The translations under genes were made by a program, and so were the position numbers. A stretch of 64,000 bases of DNA, from assembly GCA_022842935.1 (NCBI GenBank), contig JALHOP010000002.1, forward strand, positions 558,001 through 622,000, written 5' to 3'. Below, in pieces: positions 14,808 to 27,551 of the stretch; position 1 is the stretch's first letter; every line of letters starts with the position of its first letter. The notes beneath the pieces were generated by a model. The model was not told the DNA's origin. It did no database searches and was given only the letters and a program-made list of their open reading frames with translations. Source of the stretch: Myxococcota bacterium (GTDB lineage: Bacteria > Myxococcota > XYA12-FULL-58-9 > JALHOP01).

Positions 14808-14883
<76 letters not shown>

Positions 14884-14954: not shown

Positions 14955-14974
14955 TGACAGCAGTTTTGACAGCA
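14955..14974 (+). repeat. Left integrase arm-type site pair
   Basis: Two TGACAGCA octamers at 14955 and 14967, period 12, about 70-90 bp inside attL. The same pair, spacing and orientation recur inside attR at 27381-27400. Probable arm-type binding sites for the integrase. Confidence 0.6.
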
Positions 14975-15025
14975 AGCCCAGTCCAAACGATCGTCAGCGA
15001 GTCCATCGGGCGTGCGAGTTGCGCC

Positions 15026-15586
15026 GTGCATACCGACCACGAGATCTTCGAAGAGCTTTGGCAAGAATTCGCTCGCGTCGATACGCTGCGCCTCGTCTTC
15101 AAGGGACTGTACGCCGACGACACTGTCGAAGGCCTGAATCGCCATGCCTCATGGCTCTTCAGCGAAATTCAGCGTGCTCTCGGCGACACCTTGCTCATGC
15201 AGATCGCACGCATGGCCGACCCAGACTCGAACGCATTGACCTTCCGCAAGTTGTTTAATCGACTATGCGTGCCGGCCGGTCCGCAGCGCGCCAAAGTCGA
15301 ACAGCAGCTCAGAGACCTCGACGATGCCTGCGAGCCGATCCGAACCCACCGAGACAAGCGAATCGCTCACAACGAAGTGAAGGTGGCGCTGAAATCGCGT
15401 GAACTTCCTACGCTGCTAAATCAGGACATCACGCGCGCATTGAAGGCGATGCAGCCACTGATCGACTCGTTCAATGAGCTTTTGGGCGCCACCAAGAGTT
15501 CGTCGATCGAAGTGCGAAGCGCAGTTGTCGAACAGGCAGAAAGAGTTGCTCGGCACTTCAACGAGCTGGCGTCACTGCCTCGCTGA
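15026..15586 (+). CDS. AbiU2-like HEPN-domain protein
   Basis: 186 aa from GTG 15026; the open frame reaches back to a TTG at 14966 that would overlap the arm-type repeats, so the internal start is preferred but not certain. An all-helical protein with HEIFEELWQEF near the start and HRDKRIAHNE at residues ~108-117. The latter contains R-x5-H, the catalytic motif of HEPN ribonucleases, in the arrangement seen in AbiU2-type abortive-infection proteins. It is the first cargo gene of the integrated element. Inferred role: RNA cleavage in anti-phage defence or toxin activity. No obvious antitoxin partner lies adjacent. Confidence 0.65.
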   Translation: MHTDHEIFEELWQEFARVDTLRLVFKGLYADDTVEGLNRHASWLFSEIQRALGDTLLMQIARMADPDSNALTFRKLFNRLCVPAGPQRAKVEQQLRDLDDACEPIRTHRDKRIAHNEVKVALKSRELPTLLNQDITRALKAMQPLIDSFNELLGATKSSSIEVRSAVVEQAERVARHFNELASLPR

Positions 15587-16583: not shown

Positions 16584-17708
16584 GTGGACGGCGCATCCTC
16601 GAGCTTCAATCTGCAATCAGCGATCATGCGATTGCGCGCCGACGTTCGGGCGTTCGCCGCGGGTCCGAGCCGGGCGACTCCGCCGGCCCGCCTCGGCGAC
16701 TTCGCTCTTCATGAGCTCATCGGGCGCGGAGCGATGGGCGACGTCTATGCCGCCACCGACCTCGTTCGTGAGCGCTCATGCGCGCTCAAGGTCGTCTCGG
16801 CTCTTACAGGCGTCCAAGAAGAGCGATTCCGCCGCGAGGCAACTCTTGCAAGCCGCCTCAATCACGAAGGCATCGCGCGCGTGTACGCGAGCGGGCAAGC
16901 CAATGGCTTTGCTTTCATCGCGTCGGAGTTTGTCGACGGCGTTCCTCTTTCTAAGATTGTAGAGCACGCAGGGGATGTGGATGCTGAGCTGCCAGGAGAT
17001 GCTTGGTTCGATCGTTGCTTCGACGCGATTGCAGTCGGCCATCGCGGCCATCGGGCTCCGCTTCCGTCGTCAGTCGCACTCCACATTGGACGTCAGATTG
17101 CGCGCGCACTCGCGCACGCTCATGCCCGTGAAGTCGTGCATCGCGACATCAAGCCAGCCAACGTGATGGTGTCCGATCACGGTGTCGTGACGCTCGTCGA
17201 CTTTGGAATCGCTCGCGACCTCGCAAGGTGGAGCCCGCGCCTGACAGCGCACGGCATATTCGTCGGCACGACGGACTACGCCGCGCCAGAGCAGCTGGCG
17301 GGCAGCCATGACGCGATCGGCCCGTGGACAGACGTGTTTTCTTGGGGCGTCACGATGTTCGAGCTGCTCACACGGCAGTTGCCGTGGCCGCCCATGGACC
17401 ACGCGAGGGAGACCGCTACCAGGGTCACCGACTCCCTAAAGGAGCTCAACCCGCTGGTCCCTCTGCGCCTTGACGCCATCGTGATGCGTGCTCTTGCGCT
17501 GCCACCAGAACAGCGATTCCGCGATGCTGGACACCTCAGCCAAGCACTCAACAGAGGAGCTTCTAGACGCATCACCGCATCGCAACGACAGCTTCCGCCG
17601 ACCATGCACAAGGTGGCTAGCGTCGCGGCTGGGATTGCGATCACCGGCGGGGTTATCCTGGGTCTCCTGCTCGTGCTCTTCCTCGCGATGTTCGTCGCAT
17701 CGAACTGA
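16584..17708 (+). CDS. Eukaryotic-like Ser/Thr protein kinase with C-terminal TM
   Basis: 374 aa from GTG 16584. The full kinase fold is present: glycine loop GRGAMGDVYAA (~47), catalytic Lys in CALKVVS, HRDIKPANVM (~186) with catalytic Asp and Asn, DFGIARD (~206), and an APEQ activation-segment motif. An insertion of ~35 residues sits before helix E (residues ~125-160). One transmembrane helix at ~345-368 ends the protein with almost nothing outside, so it is tail-anchored and lacks a sensor domain. The gene converges on the sigma-factor gene with no gap between the stops. Kinase-ECF pairs are known where phosphorylation activates the sigma factor; that link here is inference. Confidence 0.9.
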   Translation: MDGASSSFNLQSAIMRLRADVRAFAAGPSRATPPARLGDFALHELIGRGAMGDVYAATDLVRERSCALKVVSALTGVQEERFRREATLASRLNHEGIARVYASGQANGFAFIASEFVDGVPLSKIVEHAGDVDAELPGDAWFDRCFDAIAVGHRGHRAPLPSSVALHIGRQIARALAHAHAREVVHRDIKPANVMVSDHGVVTLVDFGIARDLARWSPRLTAHGIFVGTTDYAAPEQLAGSHDAIGPWTDVFSWGVTMFELLTRQLPWPPMDHARETATRVTDSLKELNPLVPLRLDAIVMRALALPPEQRFRDAGHLSQALNRGASRRITASQRQLPPTMHKVASVAAGIAITGGVILGLLLVLFLAMFVASN

Positions 17709-18296
17709 TCACCTGTCGCGAGACTTCAAAGCATACGCGATGCGCACTTGCGCACGCTCGATGCGCTTGCGCGCTGCCTCAGCCGTCAGACCCAGATGGT
17801 CCGCTATCTCAGCGTACGAGTACCCGAGCACATTCATCTCAATGCCAGTACGCTCGTCGTCGTCGAGTCGCTCAAGCTGCTCACGCACGGCATCGGCATG
17901 CCGTGACACGTCAGCGAGCGATTCCGCAGACCTAGCTATCGCCGGCGTTTCGTCATCGAGCACGCCCAGTTCACGACGCGCGTCGCGACGTCCAGCGGTA
18001 TGCCTGCGCCCTGCGTCCGCTGCCGCGGAGTCCGCAATCGTCCTGAGCCATACGAGGAACGGTTTACGCCCCTGCCATTTGTAGCCGCGAAGGGCCAAGA
18101 GCGCGCGAATCGCCGCGTCCTGCGCGATGTCTGAAGCATCCTCGCGCCCATGCACGAGCTTAAGGCGGGCGCGCGTGGCGATCTCGATGATGTGCCAGTA
18201 ACGGCTCAGCAGGAGGTCGCGCGCCGCACGGTCGCCGTTCGCCGCGCTCGTGACCGTCTCCTCGAGCATGTGGGTGTCGAGCGACTCGCGCTCCAT
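17709..18296 (-). CDS. ECF-type RNA polymerase sigma factor
   Basis: 195 aa. Region 2 lies at ~25-95 (RDLLLSRYWHIIEIATRARLK, DASDIAQDAAIRAL, FLVWLRTIADSAAADAGRR); region 4 helix-turn-helix at ~155-188 (GYSYAEIADHLGLTAEAARKRI). There is no region 3. The stop directly abuts the kinase stop in convergent orientation. No anti-sigma factor is adjacent. Presumed to drive cargo genes of the element, perhaps the exported-protein genes starting at 19086, 19775 and 20389, but no shared promoter motif was confirmed. Confidence 0.85.
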   Translation of the reverse strand: MERESLDTHMLEETVTSAANGDRAARDLLLSRYWHIIEIATRARLKLVHGREDASDIAQDAAIRALLALRGYKWQGRKPFLVWLRTIADSAAADAGRRHTAGRRDARRELGVLDDETPAIARSAESLADVSRHADAVREQLERLDDDERTGIEMNVLGYSYAEIADHLGLTAEAARKRIERAQVRIAYALKSRDR

Positions 18297-21487: not shown

Positions 21488-22028
21488 GACCCGCCTCCTC
21501 CAATAGTTTGTTTTGCTCAGGCTCGGGATTTTCCGCGCGAGAGACGTGAGCGGGCGCGGCAACGCCGTTGTTCACCTGCTGAGGACCGTTAGCGATGTTG
21601 GCCTGCCGCGCGATCACGACGGGCGGATTCTTGATGACCGACAACGTCTCGAGCGTCGCTCGACATTGGGCCTGGGCCTTGAGCGCAAGCCGCAGATAAC
21701 GCTCCATCGCATCGAATGTCTGGCCTTCTCGGGGGGCGGCGCGTCGACCAAGTTCGGCGAAGATGGAGTTGAGAGCGGCGGCCTGTGCCATCAGCATCGC
21801 CTCGGCCTCGCAGAGGTTGCCGTCCTGGACGCGCTTAACCTTCTCTGTCAGCACCGACATCGTCTCGGTGAGCGAAACGTCACCAAACCAGGTCGAATAA
21901 GCGACGCTAACACTTGCGGCAGTCGCGGGTGCGGACGTCGCAACCTCGGCAATCGCCCTGTCCTCCGACATGCCCCGCTTGCCCTGAACCTGGAGCACTG
22001 CGGACTTCTTCGTGTTCGATTTCGTCAC
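21384..22028 (-). CDS. Conserved mobile-element hypothetical protein
   Basis: 214 aa. GTG 22028 overlaps the upstream stop (GTGA), which decides the start. The helical core (AEAMLMAQAAALNSIFAELGRR, MERYLRLALKAQAQCRATLETLSVIKNPP) followed by ARQANIANGPQQVNNG is a recurring family in proteobacterial islands and prophages, commonly beside the small GWTPERR protein as here. The C-terminal ~40 residues are Ser/Ala-rich low complexity and overlap the next gene. No function is known to me; helical bundle and operon position suggest a DNA-replication or packaging accessory. Confidence 0.65.
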   Translation of the reverse strand: MTKSNTKKSAVLQVQGKRGMSEDRAIAEVATSAPATAASVSVAYSTWFGDVSLTETMSVLTEKVKRVQDGNLCEAEAMLMAQAAALNSIFAELGRRAAPREGQTFDAMERYLRLALKAQAQCRATLETLSVIKNPPVVIARQANIANGPQQVNNGVAAPAHVSRAENPEPEQNKLLEEAGHVERLDSGAASSAAGSDSSLAPVGKVDGTTNPKR

Positions 22029-22474
22029 GGGGTCCTCGTGTTCATACGAGCAAGCATCGCTGCGACGAAAACCCGACAAGCGTCGTCGACCATCAAGAGA
22101 CTGCGGGCGCGAAACCCCGCCGCTAAGGCATCATCGAACGCCGTGAACAAGTCCGTGCTTGGCGTTCCCGGCACGTAGCGGAGGTTCACCGCTGCAAGCG
22201 CTTCACGAACGCGCGTCGTTGCGTGCTCCTCCGCCCAGCGGCTCACCACCGGGGACGCGGGGGACAATGGGGACAACCCGTAAGCACAAGGGTTTTCTCC
22301 GCTAACGTTCGTGGGGACGGTTTGGGGACTTGGGGACGATGTCCCCGGAACATCGGACTGCGGGGACACCATGGGGACGCGTAAATCCAAGTCCGCCGGG
22401 GGTGTCCCCACTGTCCCCGTCGTCCCCGCGCGCCGAGCTTCAGCTTGGGTCAAGCACGAGAAGTCGAGTCTCAC
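22025..22474 (-). CDS. Pro/Thr/Ser-rich hypothetical protein carrying the GGGGAC array
   Basis: 149 aa. GTG 22474 overlaps the helicase stop by 4 bases (GTGA). The middle ~70 residues are low-complexity (GTTGTVGTPP, VPMVSPQSDVPGTSSPSPQTVP, LSPLSPASP) and correspond to the DNA repeat array. The C-terminal ~65 residues look folded (RWAEEHATTRVREALAAVNLRY, LFTAFDDALAAGFRARSLLMVDDACRVFVAAML). Since the repeat is read in several frames, the low-complexity part is more likely a by-product of a DNA element than a conserved protein domain. Confidence 0.55.
   Translation of the reverse strand: MRLDFSCLTQAEARRAGTTGTVGTPPADLDLRVPMVSPQSDVPGTSSPSPQTVPTNVSGENPCAYGLSPLSPASPVVSRWAEEHATTRVREALAAVNLRYVPGTPSTDLFTAFDDALAAGFRARSLLMVDDACRVFVAAMLARMNTRTP
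22251..22427. repeat. GGGGAC iteron-like array, possible replication origin
   Basis: Twelve copies of GGGGAC in 177 bp: plus-strand starts at 22251, 22260, 22269, 22313, 22324, 22332, 22362, 22373; complementary copies at 22341, 22404, 22413, 22422. Each end has a triplet with an exact 9-bp period, and the two triplets are in opposite orientation. It lies just downstream of the prim-pol and helicase genes, a common place for satellite or plasmid origins. Confidence 0.6.
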
Positions 22475-24216
22475 GCGTCCTCCCACAGCTTGGGCGTGAT
22501 TACGTAGCAGCGCGTTGCCCCAAGGCCCGGAAGGCGTGGCTTGTCTGTCGGTCTTCCATCGCCCCCCGACTGCAAATAGCCCCTGGCGAGCAGGACGCCG
22601 GCTGCCCATTTGGGCTCGAAGTTGGCGCAGAGCTCTTGCTTGAAGGCTTCGGGGAGCACGTAGTAGCGGCGGACCCCGTTCGATTCCGTGTCGAAGAACC
22701 CTGCGCGATTGATGATCGACCGCAAGGGGTCATGGCCCTCTTTGTTTTCGAAGCGGCTAGTCCCGTGCTTCTCGAGAAAGCCGCGCACCTGTGCAATGAG
22801 CGAGTGCTCCTCCCGATCGGCACTACCAAACGCGGCCAGCCAGGAAGCGAAACACTTCCCCAACGCCTCACTCGCCTCATGTTTCGCCCAGCCAGTAAGC
22901 CCGTAATATGTTGCAAGCTCGCCGGCCACAGCGACGAGTCCAAATCGCCGCGCGACGCGTAAGACCTGGCCGGATGAACCGGCAGGCACGTTCGTCTCGA
23001 CGAACTGTCTGCAGCCGTCATTGACCAGACCAAAGAGTTCGGCGCGATCCTTCACCACGAAGCGCAGCCACTCGAGGCCGACTTCACCGTAGTTGGTGGA
23101 AGCGGCTTCCTTGAGAGCGCGCGCAAACGCCGCTGGCGAATCAACGCCGTGCGTATTCTCGAACGCACCCATGCCGGCGCCCGCGTCAGCTTCGATATCT
23201 GCCATGCGGATCTCTTGACCCGCATTCGTCTTCATGTTGGCGCGTGCCATAACGGACGCGAGAGACTGCTCACCAGCGCTGAGAAACAAGAGCCGCCAGC
23301 GCGCTGCTTTGCGCGCCTGCCCCGTCCGCGTTGCGCGCGCCTTACCTTGACCGTTGCCGAGCATGTAGGCCGCTTCGCCGACTTCGAACGGGTTCGCTTG
23401 GCTTAGTTCGTCGAGGACAAGCAGACCATCGTTGTGCGCAGCTCCCACGCCCTCGAGCCCGTTTGTCGTGGCGCGCCACGTGCGCGCGTACGCGTCAGGT
23501 GCTCCCCAAACCGATGCGGCTACCCGAAGAGCCGTGCTCTTCCCCGAGGAGGACGGTCCTCGAAGGTGGAAGCCACCGGAGTCGTCACCGACGATGCCCA
23601 AGAGCGTCGGCGCGAACGCAGCCGACACCGCGAACACGAGTCTGGAATTGCCAGCACAGAGAGTAGCAACGGAATCGCGCCAGGTACCGACAGCGCCCGC
23701 AACGCTCGAAGCCGCCTCCACGGCATGAACGTTCTGAAAGACAACGCGCTCCTCGCCTTCGCCGACTACTCCCGCAGGGGTAACGAAAAGCGAGCCGAGC
23801 CAACCAACGCGATCGACGCAGCGCGCCCGGTCTTCCGTCGGCCATGACTGCAGGTAGCCGGCGAGCAGCTCACGGGCTGTTCTATTCTGTGCGATCGCCA
23901 GACCGCGCCGCGCTAGTTCTCTACGGACGTCGGCGCCGTCACTCTGGAGCAGTTCCATGGGCATCGACCACTCGTGCTTCGTTCCGTCGGGATCGGCCCA
24001 TTGCAGGAGTCGACCCCATTCCGCTCCAGCGGAGTCGCGGGTCTTGGCAAGGACTTGAAGACGCCCGCACAACCACAATGGTGGCTTGTCGGTGCCGTCG
24101 TCGTTCTTCCCAACGTAGTAGATGCCCTCATGGTCTAGCTCGAACCGACCGCCACCATACGGGCAGGACTTACGTTCCGCCTCGGCGAGCCGATACACAT
24201 TCGGAGGCGCGTTCAT
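22471..24216 (-). CDS. DUF927-family replication helicase/ATPase
   Basis: 581 aa. The DUF927 core has Walker A GPSSSGKST (residues 220-228) and Walker B LLVLDEL (264-270), followed by NPFEVGEAAYMLGNGQGKARA and a LLFLSAGEQSL sensor-like strand. The N-terminal ~110 residues resemble the partner domain that couples primase and helicase. The ATG overlaps the prim-pol stop (ATGA), and its own stop overlaps the next start (GTGA). In mobile elements this pair acts together to open and prime the origin; here it probably drives autonomous replication of the element. Confidence 0.85.
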   Translation of the reverse strand: MNAPPNVYRLAEAERKSCPYGGGRFELDHEGIYYVGKNDDGTDKPPLWLCGRLQVLAKTRDSAGAEWGRLLQWADPDGTKHEWSMPMELLQSDGADVRRELARRGLAIAQNRTARELLAGYLQSWPTEDRARCVDRVGWLGSLFVTPAGVVGEGEERVVFQNVHAVEAASSVAGAVGTWRDSVATLCAGNSRLVFAVSAAFAPTLLGIVGDDSGGFHLRGPSSSGKSTALRVAASVWGAPDAYARTWRATTNGLEGVGAAHNDGLLVLDELSQANPFEVGEAAYMLGNGQGKARATRTGQARKAARWRLLFLSAGEQSLASVMARANMKTNAGQEIRMADIEADAGAGMGAFENTHGVDSPAAFARALKEAASTNYGEVGLEWLRFVVKDRAELFGLVNDGCRQFVETNVPAGSSGQVLRVARRFGLVAVAGELATYYGLTGWAKHEASEALGKCFASWLAAFGSADREEHSLIAQVRGFLEKHGTSRFENKEGHDPLRSIINRAGFFDTESNGVRRYYVLPEAFKQELCANFEPKWAAGVLLARGYLQSGGDGRPTDKPRLPGLGATRCYVITPKLWEDA

Positions 24217-25028
24217 CGCGCCACCCTGCTACGCAGCTCCCGACCTGCGATGCTGTCGACGGTCTTTGCCACTTCGTCCTCAGATATCGGCGGATCGCAG
24301 AAGCGAGCGTTCCACCCAAGCAGCAAGCCGAACGCAAGGACAGGCTCGAGCCTCCGCAGGAGAAGCCCAGCCAGACTGGCGATCGTCTCGTTGCGCTCGC
24401 CCTCGCGGACGCGTTCGGTGACGAGAGTTGGCCATCCACCCAGTGCGGAGCGGCGTTCACGCGCGCTCGCCTTATCAGACGCGGCGAGAAGTGCGACGAG
24501 CGACGCTGGTGCTTCTGCCACCGGTGCGTCGCCATGCCATGCGTATCGCTGACCACTCTGATGAACGCTCGGTGGCGCAACGACGTAGCCACCATCGCCT
24601 CGGACATCCAATCCTTTGCCGAGCTTCGAAGCGCTGTTGCGGATCGTCACGCCAGGTACAGCGAAGTAGAGATGCTGTCCGCCGCCACCGGTAGTCACTT
24701 CCGCCGTCGCGGGCAGTTCGACGCGGCGCCGCAACGCGCGAAGGCTTTCGTCGCCTTCATGGCGGGGATCGATGTCGAGTGCGACGAGGCCTCGGCCGGT
24801 TGCGATCGCGACGTTGGCTTCGGGCCAGCGGCGCCACCATTCCCGGATCACCTCAAGATCGGTACTGGCGTCCTTGAGGCCTTTGGTCGTCAGCGGGTGC
24901 TTCGCTGGACTGCTGCAATCGACCTGACGACAAGTGCAGACGCCGACTCGGGCGCTGTGCACGGGGAACACCGGCCAACCTCGTTGCGCATAGCGCTCTG
25001 CCCATTCTAGACAGCGGTCGGCGTTCAT
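24213..25028 (-). CDS. Bifunctional DNA primase/polymerase (prim-pol)
   Basis: 271 aa. N-terminal prim-pol domain: HPLTTKGLKDAS, metal-binding LDIDPRH (D85, D87), TTGGGGQHLYF (H119) and GLDVRGDGGYVVAPPS. C-terminal PriCT-like region ERNETIASLAGLLLRR..CDPPISEDEVAKTV. All expected active-site residues are present. ATG 25028 overlaps the stop of the AlpA-like gene (ATGA). It synthesises primers for the element replicon together with the DUF927 helicase downstream. Confidence 0.9.
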   Translation of the reverse strand: MNADRCLEWAERYAQRGWPVFPVHSARVGVCTCRQVDCSSPAKHPLTTKGLKDASTDLEVIREWWRRWPEANVAIATGRGLVALDIDPRHEGDESLRALRRRVELPATAEVTTGGGGQHLYFAVPGVTIRNSASKLGKGLDVRGDGGYVVAPPSVHQSGQRYAWHGDAPVAEAPASLVALLAASDKASARERRSALGGWPTLVTERVREGERNETIASLAGLLLRRLEPVLAFGLLLGWNARFCDPPISEDEVAKTVDSIAGRELRSRVAR

Positions 25029-25210
25029 CGTGACGCCTCGCTCTCCGTCTTGGCCTCAATCCATCGTTGCAGGGCGGCTGCCGGAACACGGACTGCGCGG
25101 CCCAACCGCACCACCGGGATCTCGCCGCGCTGCGCCATTGTGTAGGCCTTTGCGCGACTCAGGCGAAGCAGCTTCGCGGCCTCTTCAACTCTCAGAAGCA
25201 AATCTTGCAT
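25025..25210 (-). CDS. AlpA/excisionase-like HTH protein
   Basis: 61 aa from ATG 25210. MQDLLLRVEEAAKLLRLSRAKAYTMAQRGEIPVVRLGRAVRVPAAALQRWIEA is a complete MerR-like winged helix of the HTH_17 type: a recognition helix then the P-x-x-R-x-G-R-x-x-R wing. First gene of the minus-strand replication operon, divergent from the integrase operon across 86 bp full of repeats. AlpA-type proteins act as excisionase or as operon activator in satellites; both are plausible here. Confidence 0.85.
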   Translation of the reverse strand: MQDLLLRVEEAAKLLRLSRAKAYTMAQRGEIPVVRLGRAVRVPAAALQRWIEAKTESEASR

Positions 25211-25225
25211 GTCAGGTACCCCATT

Positions 25226-25267
25226 CGCCGTTATGGCGGATGGTCCACGCTGACACTGTCTGGACCA
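25226..25267. promoter_or_regulatory. Operator-like inverted repeats between divergent operons
   Basis: A 7-bp perfect inverted repeat TGGTCCA (25241-25247) / TGGACCA (25261-25267) with a 13-bp spacer, preceded by CGCC-GTTAT-GGCG (25226-25238). Placed between the AlpA-like and CGNR-integrase operons; a likely binding site for AlpA or another switch protein. Confidence 0.5.
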
Positions 25268-25280
25268 AATGACATCACGC

Positions 25281-25302
25281 ATGATATGACGATGATATGA
25301 CG
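25281..25302 (+). repeat. Tandem 11-bp repeat over a start codon
   Basis: ATGATATGACG occurs twice head to tail (25281-25291, 25292-25302) and includes the ATG of the gene at 25297. Could be a protein-binding site occluding translation or transcription initiation, or alternative in-register start codons. Confidence 0.45.
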
Positions 25303-26187
25303 GTGAGTCGATTCCAACTGAGCGAGTTCATTGACCCCGATTCGGGCAGGCTATTCGGCGGAGCGCTTCCATTCGAATCTTGGACGACGAACGCCGCTGC
25401 TCTCCATCTGCACGGCGAATACCTGGTCTACAGGTGGACAGAGGAGAGCAATCGGCCCGCCGCTGATCTGGTGGTCCACGCTAACGCGCGCATGTTGGAT
25501 GAGTTCTTGAGGGTGGCTGATGCCGAGCCATCGAGCGTTCTCCGTTTCGCCCGCCGTTACGGCGATTGGAACGTCTGTGAGCATGGCCTCCCGTACACAC
25601 ACCCGGTCCCCGCGAAACGAAGGCCATGTGGCTCGCTCAAGCGCCAACACGTTGATACGTTTCGCGGCCTCGCGCGGATTGCGCGCGCGCTCCTGAACGC
25701 TTCCGCATCACTACTGACGGAGGAACGGCCCAGCCAGGAGGATTGGCGCGCGGTCGTCACCGCGTTCTGTGCTTGGGGGCGGATCATGTACGGTCAAGGC
25801 CCGAGGCATTTTGGTCTCAAGGAGCTAATCGCGCTGGAGCATCCGCTCGATCAGCAAGCGACGATTGCTGCGATGCTCCACGCGTGGATGGAGGCGGGCG
25901 GGGTGCTTCCCAGCCTCGTTTGGCGACGGGCTCAAGGGCCCAAGATCGAGCTCTTGGCTGCGGATGGCGCACAGCTGTTCGCGGCTCTAGGCATGCTTGT
26001 CATGTCGGCCGTTAGCCGTTCTAGCGGCATTGAACTTTGCTCTGGCTGCGGCAAAGCGTTCAATCCGAAAAGCAAAGCGCGAACCGGGCATAGACGTTAT
26101 TGCGGACAGTGTCGCCGTGCAGGCGTACCCTCGAGAGACGCCGCTCGTGATTACAGGGCAAAGCGCGCGAGCCGGGAGGTACCATGA
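25297..26187 (+). CDS. CGNR-type zinc-finger protein upstream of integrase
   Basis: 296 aa. The C-terminal zinc finger CSGCGKAF..RTGHRRYCGQCRRAG is a four-Cys site (C-x2-C..C-x2-C) followed by RDAARDYRAKR, the signature seen in proteins encoded just before tyrosine integrases in many islands. The N-terminal ~240 residues are helical and unassigned. The stop overlaps the integrase start by 4 bases, so they are coexpressed. Inferred role: DNA-binding regulator or recombination cofactor. Confidence 0.7.
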   Translation: MTVSRFQLSEFIDPDSGRLFGGALPFESWTTNAAALHLHGEYLVYRWTEESNRPAADLVVHANARMLDEFLRVADAEPSSVLRFARRYGDWNVCEHGLPYTHPVPAKRRPCGSLKRQHVDTFRGLARIARALLNASASLLTEERPSQEDWRAVVTAFCAWGRIMYGQGPRHFGLKELIALEHPLDQQATIAAMLHAWMEAGGVLPSLVWRRAQGPKIELLAADGAQLFAALGMLVMSAVSRSSGIELCSGCGKAFNPKSKARTGHRRYCGQCRRAGVPSRDAARDYRAKRASREVP

Positions 26188-27317
26188 GCAAGCGACGCGG
26201 ACACGGCGAGGGGTCGATCTATCAGCGCAAGGACGGCCGATGGGTTGCGGCACTTAGCCTTGGTAATGGTCGGCGCAAGAACTTCTACGGCGCGACTCAC
26301 AAGGAGGTCCGCGATCGCCTCACGGAGGCGGCGCGAGCGCACCAACTCGGCTTGCCGATCGCAGCGGAAAAAGAGCGACTCTCGGCCTTCCTAACGCGTT
26401 GGTTGAACGAAGCCGCGAAGCCTCGGGTTCGAGCGAGCACGTTCGCCAGCTACGAGAGCTTGGTCCGCATTCACATTCTGCCGGAGATCGGCTCGATCGC
26501 TCTCGCGAAGCTCACGCCTTCTGACGTCAACGGGCTGTTGTCACGCAAGCTCGCCGCTGGCTTGTCGCCTCGACGCGTGCAGCTGATTCGCGTGGTGCTG
26601 AGCATGGCCCTCAAGCAGGCGGAGCGATGGGGCATGCTGCCTCGCAATGTCGCCGCGTTGGTGGCGTCGCCTCGCGTTGAGAGGCACGAAGTGCAGCCGC
26701 TCACGCCCGACGAGGCGAGACAGCTCCTCGCTGCCGTTGCTGGCGATCGGCTCGAGGCTTTGTATTCGGTGGCTCTCGCGATGGGCCTACGACAAGGCGA
26801 GGCGCTTGCGTTGCGATGGCAAGACATCGACATCGACAAGGGGCGCGCAGCCGTGCTGGCTTCGCTTCAACGCGTCGACGGGAAACTCCAGCGCGTTGCT
26901 CCCAAGACAAAGCAGAGTCGACGGACTGGCGCCCTGCCGTCAGTTGTTGTGGAAGCGCTACGTCGCCATCGGAACCGGCAGCGCCAAGAGAAGCTGTTGG
27001 CTGGCACTCGTTGGCGTGAAACCGGACTCGTGTTCACAACGAGCATCGGTACCGGCATCGACGCGGGTTACGTCTGGCGCCACTTCCAACGCACACTCAA
27101 GGCAGCCGGTCTGCGGCGGATGCGCTTCCATGACCTACGCCACTCTTGCGCGTCACTGCTTATCGCCCAGGGCATTCATCCAAAGGTGCTGCAAGCGACG
27201 CTCGGCCACGCGACCATCGGCATCACGATGGACACCTACGGCCACTTGTTCAGCGACGCTCAGCGCGACGCCGCCGTGAAGATGGACGCGGCGCTCTCCG
27301 CTGATACCGCTGGGTGA
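26184..27317 (+). CDS. int: Tyrosine site-specific integrase
   Basis: 377 aa. An AP2-like arm-binding N-terminus (GHGEGSIYQRKDGRWVAALSLGNGRRKNFYG, residues 6-36), a SAM-like core-binding domain (~65-160), then the catalytic domain with Arg203 (GLRQGEALALR), beta-loop Lys (KTKQSRR, ~241-243), HDLRH (H316, R319), His342 (LGHATIG) and nucleophile Tyr352 (MDTYGHLFSD). All catalytic residues are present. Located 189 bp from attR and reading towards it; expected to integrate and excise the element at tRNA-Phe. Confidence 0.95.
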   Translation: MSKRRGHGEGSIYQRKDGRWVAALSLGNGRRKNFYGATHKEVRDRLTEAARAHQLGLPIAAEKERLSAFLTRWLNEAAKPRVRASTFASYESLVRIHILPEIGSIALAKLTPSDVNGLLSRKLAAGLSPRRVQLIRVVLSMALKQAERWGMLPRNVAALVASPRVERHEVQPLTPDEARQLLAAVAGDRLEALYSVALAMGLRQGEALALRWQDIDIDKGRAAVLASLQRVDGKLQRVAPKTKQSRRTGALPSVVVEALRRHRNRQRQEKLLAGTRWRETGLVFTTSIGTGIDAGYVWRHFQRTLKAAGLRRMRFHDLRHSCASLLIAQGIHPKVLQATLGHATIGITMDTYGHLFSDAQRDAAVKMDAALSADTAG

Positions 27318-27505: not shown

Positions 27506-27551
27506 ACTGAAAATCCTCGTGTCGGTGGTTCGATTCCGCCCCTGGGCACTT
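27506..27551. repeat. attR: 46-bp copy of the tRNA-Phe 3' end
   Basis: Perfect direct repeat of 14838-14883, starting in the anticodon loop. Lacks the tRNA 5' half, so it is not a tRNA gene. Marks the right junction of the element with host DNA. Confidence 0.9.

Follow-up and report, generated by a model that had tools for sequence, protein, structure and literature searches.

What is a hexamer repeated twelve times doing immediately behind a helicase gene? Within the window, the stretch of 64,000 nucleotides analysed here, a dense GGGGAC array lies at positions 22251-22427, and a first-pass annotation made from the letters had read it as an iteron array marking a replication origin. Our recount of exact sites agrees with the twelve copies and the opposed 9-bp end triplets that it described: sites on the plus strand start at 22251, 22260, 22269, 22313, 22324, 22332, 22362 and 22373, and those on the minus strand at 22341, 22404, 22413 and 22422. 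The two outer triplets, both at 9-bp spacing (22251-22274, plus strand; 22404-22427, inverted, minus strand), form a 30-nt inverted repeat that is 87% complementary, and the 9-bp GGGGAC triplet occurs nowhere else in the 6.28-Mb genome. The background of one GGGGAC per ~750 bases that the annotation gave was too high; the expectation on both strands is ~36 per 64 kb, or one per ~1,800 bp. When the entire 64 kb was dinucleotide-shuffled 40 times, a 6-mer never passed 7 copies in a 177-bp stretch, and shuffling the array segment itself 2000 times gave at most 5 copies of any 6-mer, ruling out chance or composition as the source of the array. The longest iteron-free gap (22276-22312) has an A+T content of about half, compared with about 37% around it, and on base composition might weakly be proposed as a melting site.

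The array belongs to a 12.7-kb element integrated in a tRNA-Phe gene and bounded by two direct copies of 46 bp from the 3' end of that gene (attL, 14838-14883; the identical attR, 27506-27551; both plus strand). The right end of the element carries a tyrosine integrase gene (26184-27317, plus strand; PF00589, E=1.5e-24). On the minus strand, the gene order is an HTH_17/excisionase-like regulator (25025-25282; PF12728, E=4.7e-15; phrog_66), a Prim-Pol primase-polymerase (24213-25028; PF09250, E=2.5e-51), a predicted DUF927 initiator helicase of 581 aa (22471-24216; PF06048, E=1.7e-96) and the open reading frame (ORF) that holds the array (22025-22474), which begins at a GTG overlapping the stop codon of the helicase (GTGA) and has no Pfam or PHROG match. 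The first array site lies 43 bp past the helicase stop. Other genes in the element include one of the abortive-infection type HEPN_AbiU2 directly after the left att site (14966-15586), genes for a Ser/Thr protein kinase and an ECF sigma factor that appear to be cargo (16584-18296), and a gene for a 296-aa protein between HTH_17 and the integrase (25297-26187), with a C-terminal cysteine cluster and a sub-threshold Pfam match only. Several features are PICI-like, namely the integrase, an AlpA-like regulator, the primase/rep genes, a putative ori, a specific att site and a size within 10-20 kb. A PICI would also be induced and packaged by a helper phage; no packaging gene (terS, capsid) was seen among the scanned element ORFs, such genes not being universal among PICIs, and we therefore did not file the element as one.

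We gathered 160 helicase loci from the protein alone, blind to the array, by helicase-alignment search (80 from GTDB and 80 from IMG/VR; scanning IMG/VR with the single helicase protein gave no match, while the alignment succeeded). In 156 of them, the window included, there was enough sequence to look for a single 6-mer present at least 6 times in a region that begins 20 bp ahead of the helicase stop and ends 380 bp beyond it. A dense single-word array was found at the helicase stop, the same place as in the window, in 102 of these 156 loci, compared with 0.7% in dinucleotide shuffles, 3.8% in the helicase interior, 2.2% at 2 kb downstream and 5.1% just upstream. At a threshold of at least 8 copies, 62 loci remained at the helicase stop, and the three controls taken from real sequence gave 0, 0 and 1. 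The other 54 loci have no dense array within about 380 bp of the helicase stop; in some relatives the array is displaced (at +771 in L136) or, in Legionella loci, split around the helicase gene. In six loci, mostly from Legionella (L137, L138, L140, L170, L176 and L183), the helicase lies between two half-arrays, each with about 5-6 GGGACA sites, the first ~700 bp upstream of the helicase start and the second just past the stop. As to host range, a set of 195 genomes from the same phylum as the window held no other clear full-domain helicase relatives than ones of 38-42% identity, whereas those of Burkholderiales and related betaproteobacteria reach 61-62% identity to the window's helicase, and 57 of 399 sampled Burkholderiales genomes hold a relative. 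Because its closer helicase relatives are found there rather than in its own phylum, the element looks horizontally acquired.

Is the repeat kept for its DNA or for the Pro/Thr-rich protein read through it? The latter would require that selection acts on the encoded peptide, and a translationally coupled ORF does contain the array in the window, as it does for 26 of 57 arrays. The window's sites, however, fall on both strands and in all three codon phases of the minus-strand gene (2,2,2,0,1,2,2,2,0,2,2,2), the first-pass annotation having already pointed to differing frames, and for 31 of the 57 arrays an ORF that begins at the helicase stop and covers the whole array is lacking. In close relatives, a coupled ORF with a common '(L/F)DFS' leader (L130, L134 and L172) runs through arrays that differ in word and frame. 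The resulting peptides, such as GTTGTVGT, GGTSGTS, VTAVTAV and GHWGQRGQ, follow the word as DNA and the frame in which it is read rather than any protein motif. Selection for the protein is thus exceedingly improbable, and we rejected it as an explanation of the repeats on account of the frames and the non-coding relatives. Since 31 of the 57 arrays lack a spanning ORF and frames vary where one is present, the word is kept as DNA, in line with the earlier claim of conservation at DNA rather than protein level. Iterons within a reading frame of the replication region have a precedent in lambda, whose ori lies inside gene O, with an unrelated initiator and repeat.

The family shares a plan rather than a word. 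The recurrent arrangement has 12 sites (3-1-2|2-1-3), with three direct sites at 9 bp, one inverted and two direct, followed by the mirror image. This exact dyad was found in loci L131, L134, L144, L166 and L316, and the window array is a variant that departs from it (+++--+------). Among arrays with at least 8 exact sites, direct sites come first and inverted sites last in 45 of 57, and the commonest spacing is 9 bp. Of the A+T-rich centre known from PICI origins there is at most a weak sign: no strong one was seen in the window array or on average across the family, where the mean A+T excess in the array centre is at most 0.09. Position and dyad persist across the family while the word is replaced wholesale: 93 non-redundant elements use 31 words, mostly of the form nGnnAC (among them GGGGAC, GGGAAC, TGGGAC, TGGAAC, GGTAAC, GGTTAC, TGTTAC and TGGGGC), with ~56 parsimony changes of word on the helicase tree. 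From the letters of one stretch, the annotation could not have seen that the word itself is not conserved in the family.

Which part of the element might follow these changes of word? Identity across the whole C-terminal domain of the helicase failed as a predictor of the word, giving a partial correlation of the wrong sign. A plain mutual-information ranking of helicase columns was dominated by phylogeny, and we therefore relied on hold-out and independent-pair tests. Among the 51 elements used for training, K/R at residue 559 occurred only with G at word base 3 (25 vs 0; p=3.7e-9) and P/E at residue 560 mostly with G at word base 4 (17 vs 3; p=6.7e-8). Two training words (L172 and L229) had their register set again by hand; without this adjustment the table gives the same pattern. 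The rule was fixed in writing before the hold-out loci were fetched. It recurred in 42 new non-redundant elements, with tables of [[22,3],[4,13]] for residue 559 and base 3 (p=4.6e-5) and [[13,3],[5,21]] for residue 560 and base 4 (p=1.1e-4). Phylogenetically independent pairs stood at 10:0 and 9:1, respectively, those from the hold-out alone (5:0 and 5:1) being too few for significance. When 564 helicase columns were scanned across sets, the top-ranking column was K559 for base 3 and P560 for base 4. The accuracy of the rule is about 81-88%, with exceptions such as L212, L207, L352, L384 and L013, and no helicase column accounts for the identity of word base 1. Judged from sequence covariation, two helicase wing residues largely predict two word letters.

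These residues can be placed in the predicted structure. The helicase comprises a DUF927 ATPase domain and a C-terminal winged helix, according to the Pfam match and the structure model, and the full model (pLDDT 90.1) matches the folds of Cch (5dgk) and SaPIBov1 Rep (8tch), then those of MCM helicases. The modelled C-terminal domain (residues 465-581; 22474-22824, minus strand; pLDDT 94.4) matches the SaPIBov1 Rep C-terminus (8tch) with Z 11.6 and TcpK with Z 11.1 in the free form (2.3 A over 92 residues) and Z 10.6 in the oriT-bound form. In the model, residues 559-560, whose codons in the window read K559 and P560 (22537-22542, minus strand), are C-terminal domain residues 95-96 and belong to the wing, after the last long helix and before the final strand. 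TcpK, the nearest fold known in a DNA-bound form, contacts the major groove with its beta-wing to read tandem 9-nt boxes (PMC6137059); the covariation, obtained without structure, indicates the same part of the fold.

Taken together, we consider it very probable that an integrative satellite-like element starts its replication at this array, with the DUF927 helicase binding the iterons and its wing reading the word. As an origin, the array is most likely of the SaPI/PICI type, with the DUF927 initiator helicase as putative binder, because position, architecture and modelled fold match these known origins and because word and wing covary. The same evidence supports the origin proposed by the first-pass annotation, and the wing covariation and fold favour the helicase, one of the two candidate binders it had named, the other being the prim-pol. 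We infer the following course from sequence, models and analogy. After excision, the MCM-like helicase would bind the iterons via its C-terminal winged-helix domain, K/R559 going with G at base 3 and P/E560 with G at base 4, as with the K-P wing and GGGGAC here. The canonical 2 x 6 inverted sites, which fit hexameric helicases loaded in pairs, would offer one site per subunit, so that two hexamers could be loaded head to head. The paired hexamers would then melt the DNA, and Prim-Pol would prime the forks. Word and origin specificity would switch by joint change of the wing and all site copies, with selection acting on the DNA word despite its overlap with the coupled ORF.

Two other readings compete with this origin. 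The array could instead be a control site for the same helicase, for copy number or incompatibility or like the enhancer-like P4 crr, with the true origin elsewhere, and the Legionella half-arrays up- and downstream of the helicase do recall split origin/enhancer layouts. Most elements, however, have no second such array, and a segment of like layout in EcCICFT073 supports replication: a plasmid carrying its pri-rep-ori segment replicates in E. coli DH5alpha, the origin being functional in vivo, and deletion of the origin segment lowers replication (PMC6092414). We thus regard a control site as unlikely. Still less likely is that another protein of the element, HTH_17/AlpA-like or Prim-Pol, binds the word and that the helicase covaries merely by linkage. 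The HTH_17 and Prim-Pol genes adjoin and could travel together with it, but adjacent wing residues best predict adjacent bases among the 564 columns scanned, all of them from the helicase, the covariation recurs in new loci and independent pairs, and similarity of the whole domain is a poor predictor of the word.

This reading ties the repeat of one window to a general replication module and supplies many natural initiator/word pairs. We lean, by a small degree, towards the wider proposal that a two-residue wing code sets the word throughout a widespread family of helicase initiators, that two residues and about twelve sites suffice to switch to an orthogonal origin, and that 12 = 2 x 6 is a hexamer-loading register. 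Being falsifiable, the recognition rule opens origin specificity and its evolution, including incompatibility and escape from origin-directed nucleases, to direct test, and the family could serve as an orthogonal origin set for laboratory replicons.

The SaPI/PICI-type origin itself is already known (PMC6092414, PMC7581432). In a literature search, with subscription journals outside its scope, we found neither the hexamer as an iteron nor any description of words being swapped across a family while a 12-site dyad stays fixed, or of the two-residue wing rule; this does not prove them to be new. A second class of array occurs in large Toprim-type phage primases (about 960-1200 aa) on IMG/VR contigs L007, L010, L016, L047, L060, L082, L083, L094, L102, L104 and L123, which carry 10-13-site GGGGAC or GGGGGAC dyads wholly inside their own C-terminal coding sequence, with the triplets central, not outer; profile comparison by hhalign gave no relation between these primases and DUF927.

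Among the closest known counterparts is the Gram-negative PICI EcCICFT073, our positive control, in which the origin likewise lies directly 3' of the replication gene as two inverted sets of short iterons, in an element with an integrase and an AlpA-like regulator (PMC6092414). In our reading of the locus, its iteron region (L392, 23975-24250, E. coli CFT073) holds GGTAGA 11 times downstream of rep in a mirror dyad of the 12-site layout (mirror pairs 16/232, 25/223, 71/177, 93/155 and 104/144). This mirrored plan is shared although the EcCICFT073 replicase is of D5 type, not DUF927; its pri-rep, word and intergenic array differ from the window element, in which separate genes encode Prim-Pol and DUF927, an ORF holds the array and there is no known helper phage. 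SaPIBov1 Rep and SCCmec Cch resemble the window's helicase in modelled fold, including the C-terminal winged helix, and in an origin just downstream of the helicase gene that the C-terminal domain reads: that of SaPI Rep recognises the origin directly downstream of rep, and that of Cch2 binds the putative Cch2 origin (PMC7581432). They differ in their Gram-positive hosts and share only 14-17% identity with the window's helicase. TcpK-oriT (5vfx; PMC6137059) is alike in its winged helix and its tandem 9-nt boxes read through the beta-wing, TcpK being a conjugation accessory protein and no helicase. A precedent for co-switching of initiator and origin is the Vibrio cholerae PLE, in which the initiator's DNA-binding domain covaries with the origin iterons and evasion of a phage nuclease directed at the origin was shown to be one driver (PMC8263062). 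Different from the two wing residues described here, the PLE changes are whole-domain swaps in an unrelated initiator (RepA_N) with iterons of about 30 bp.
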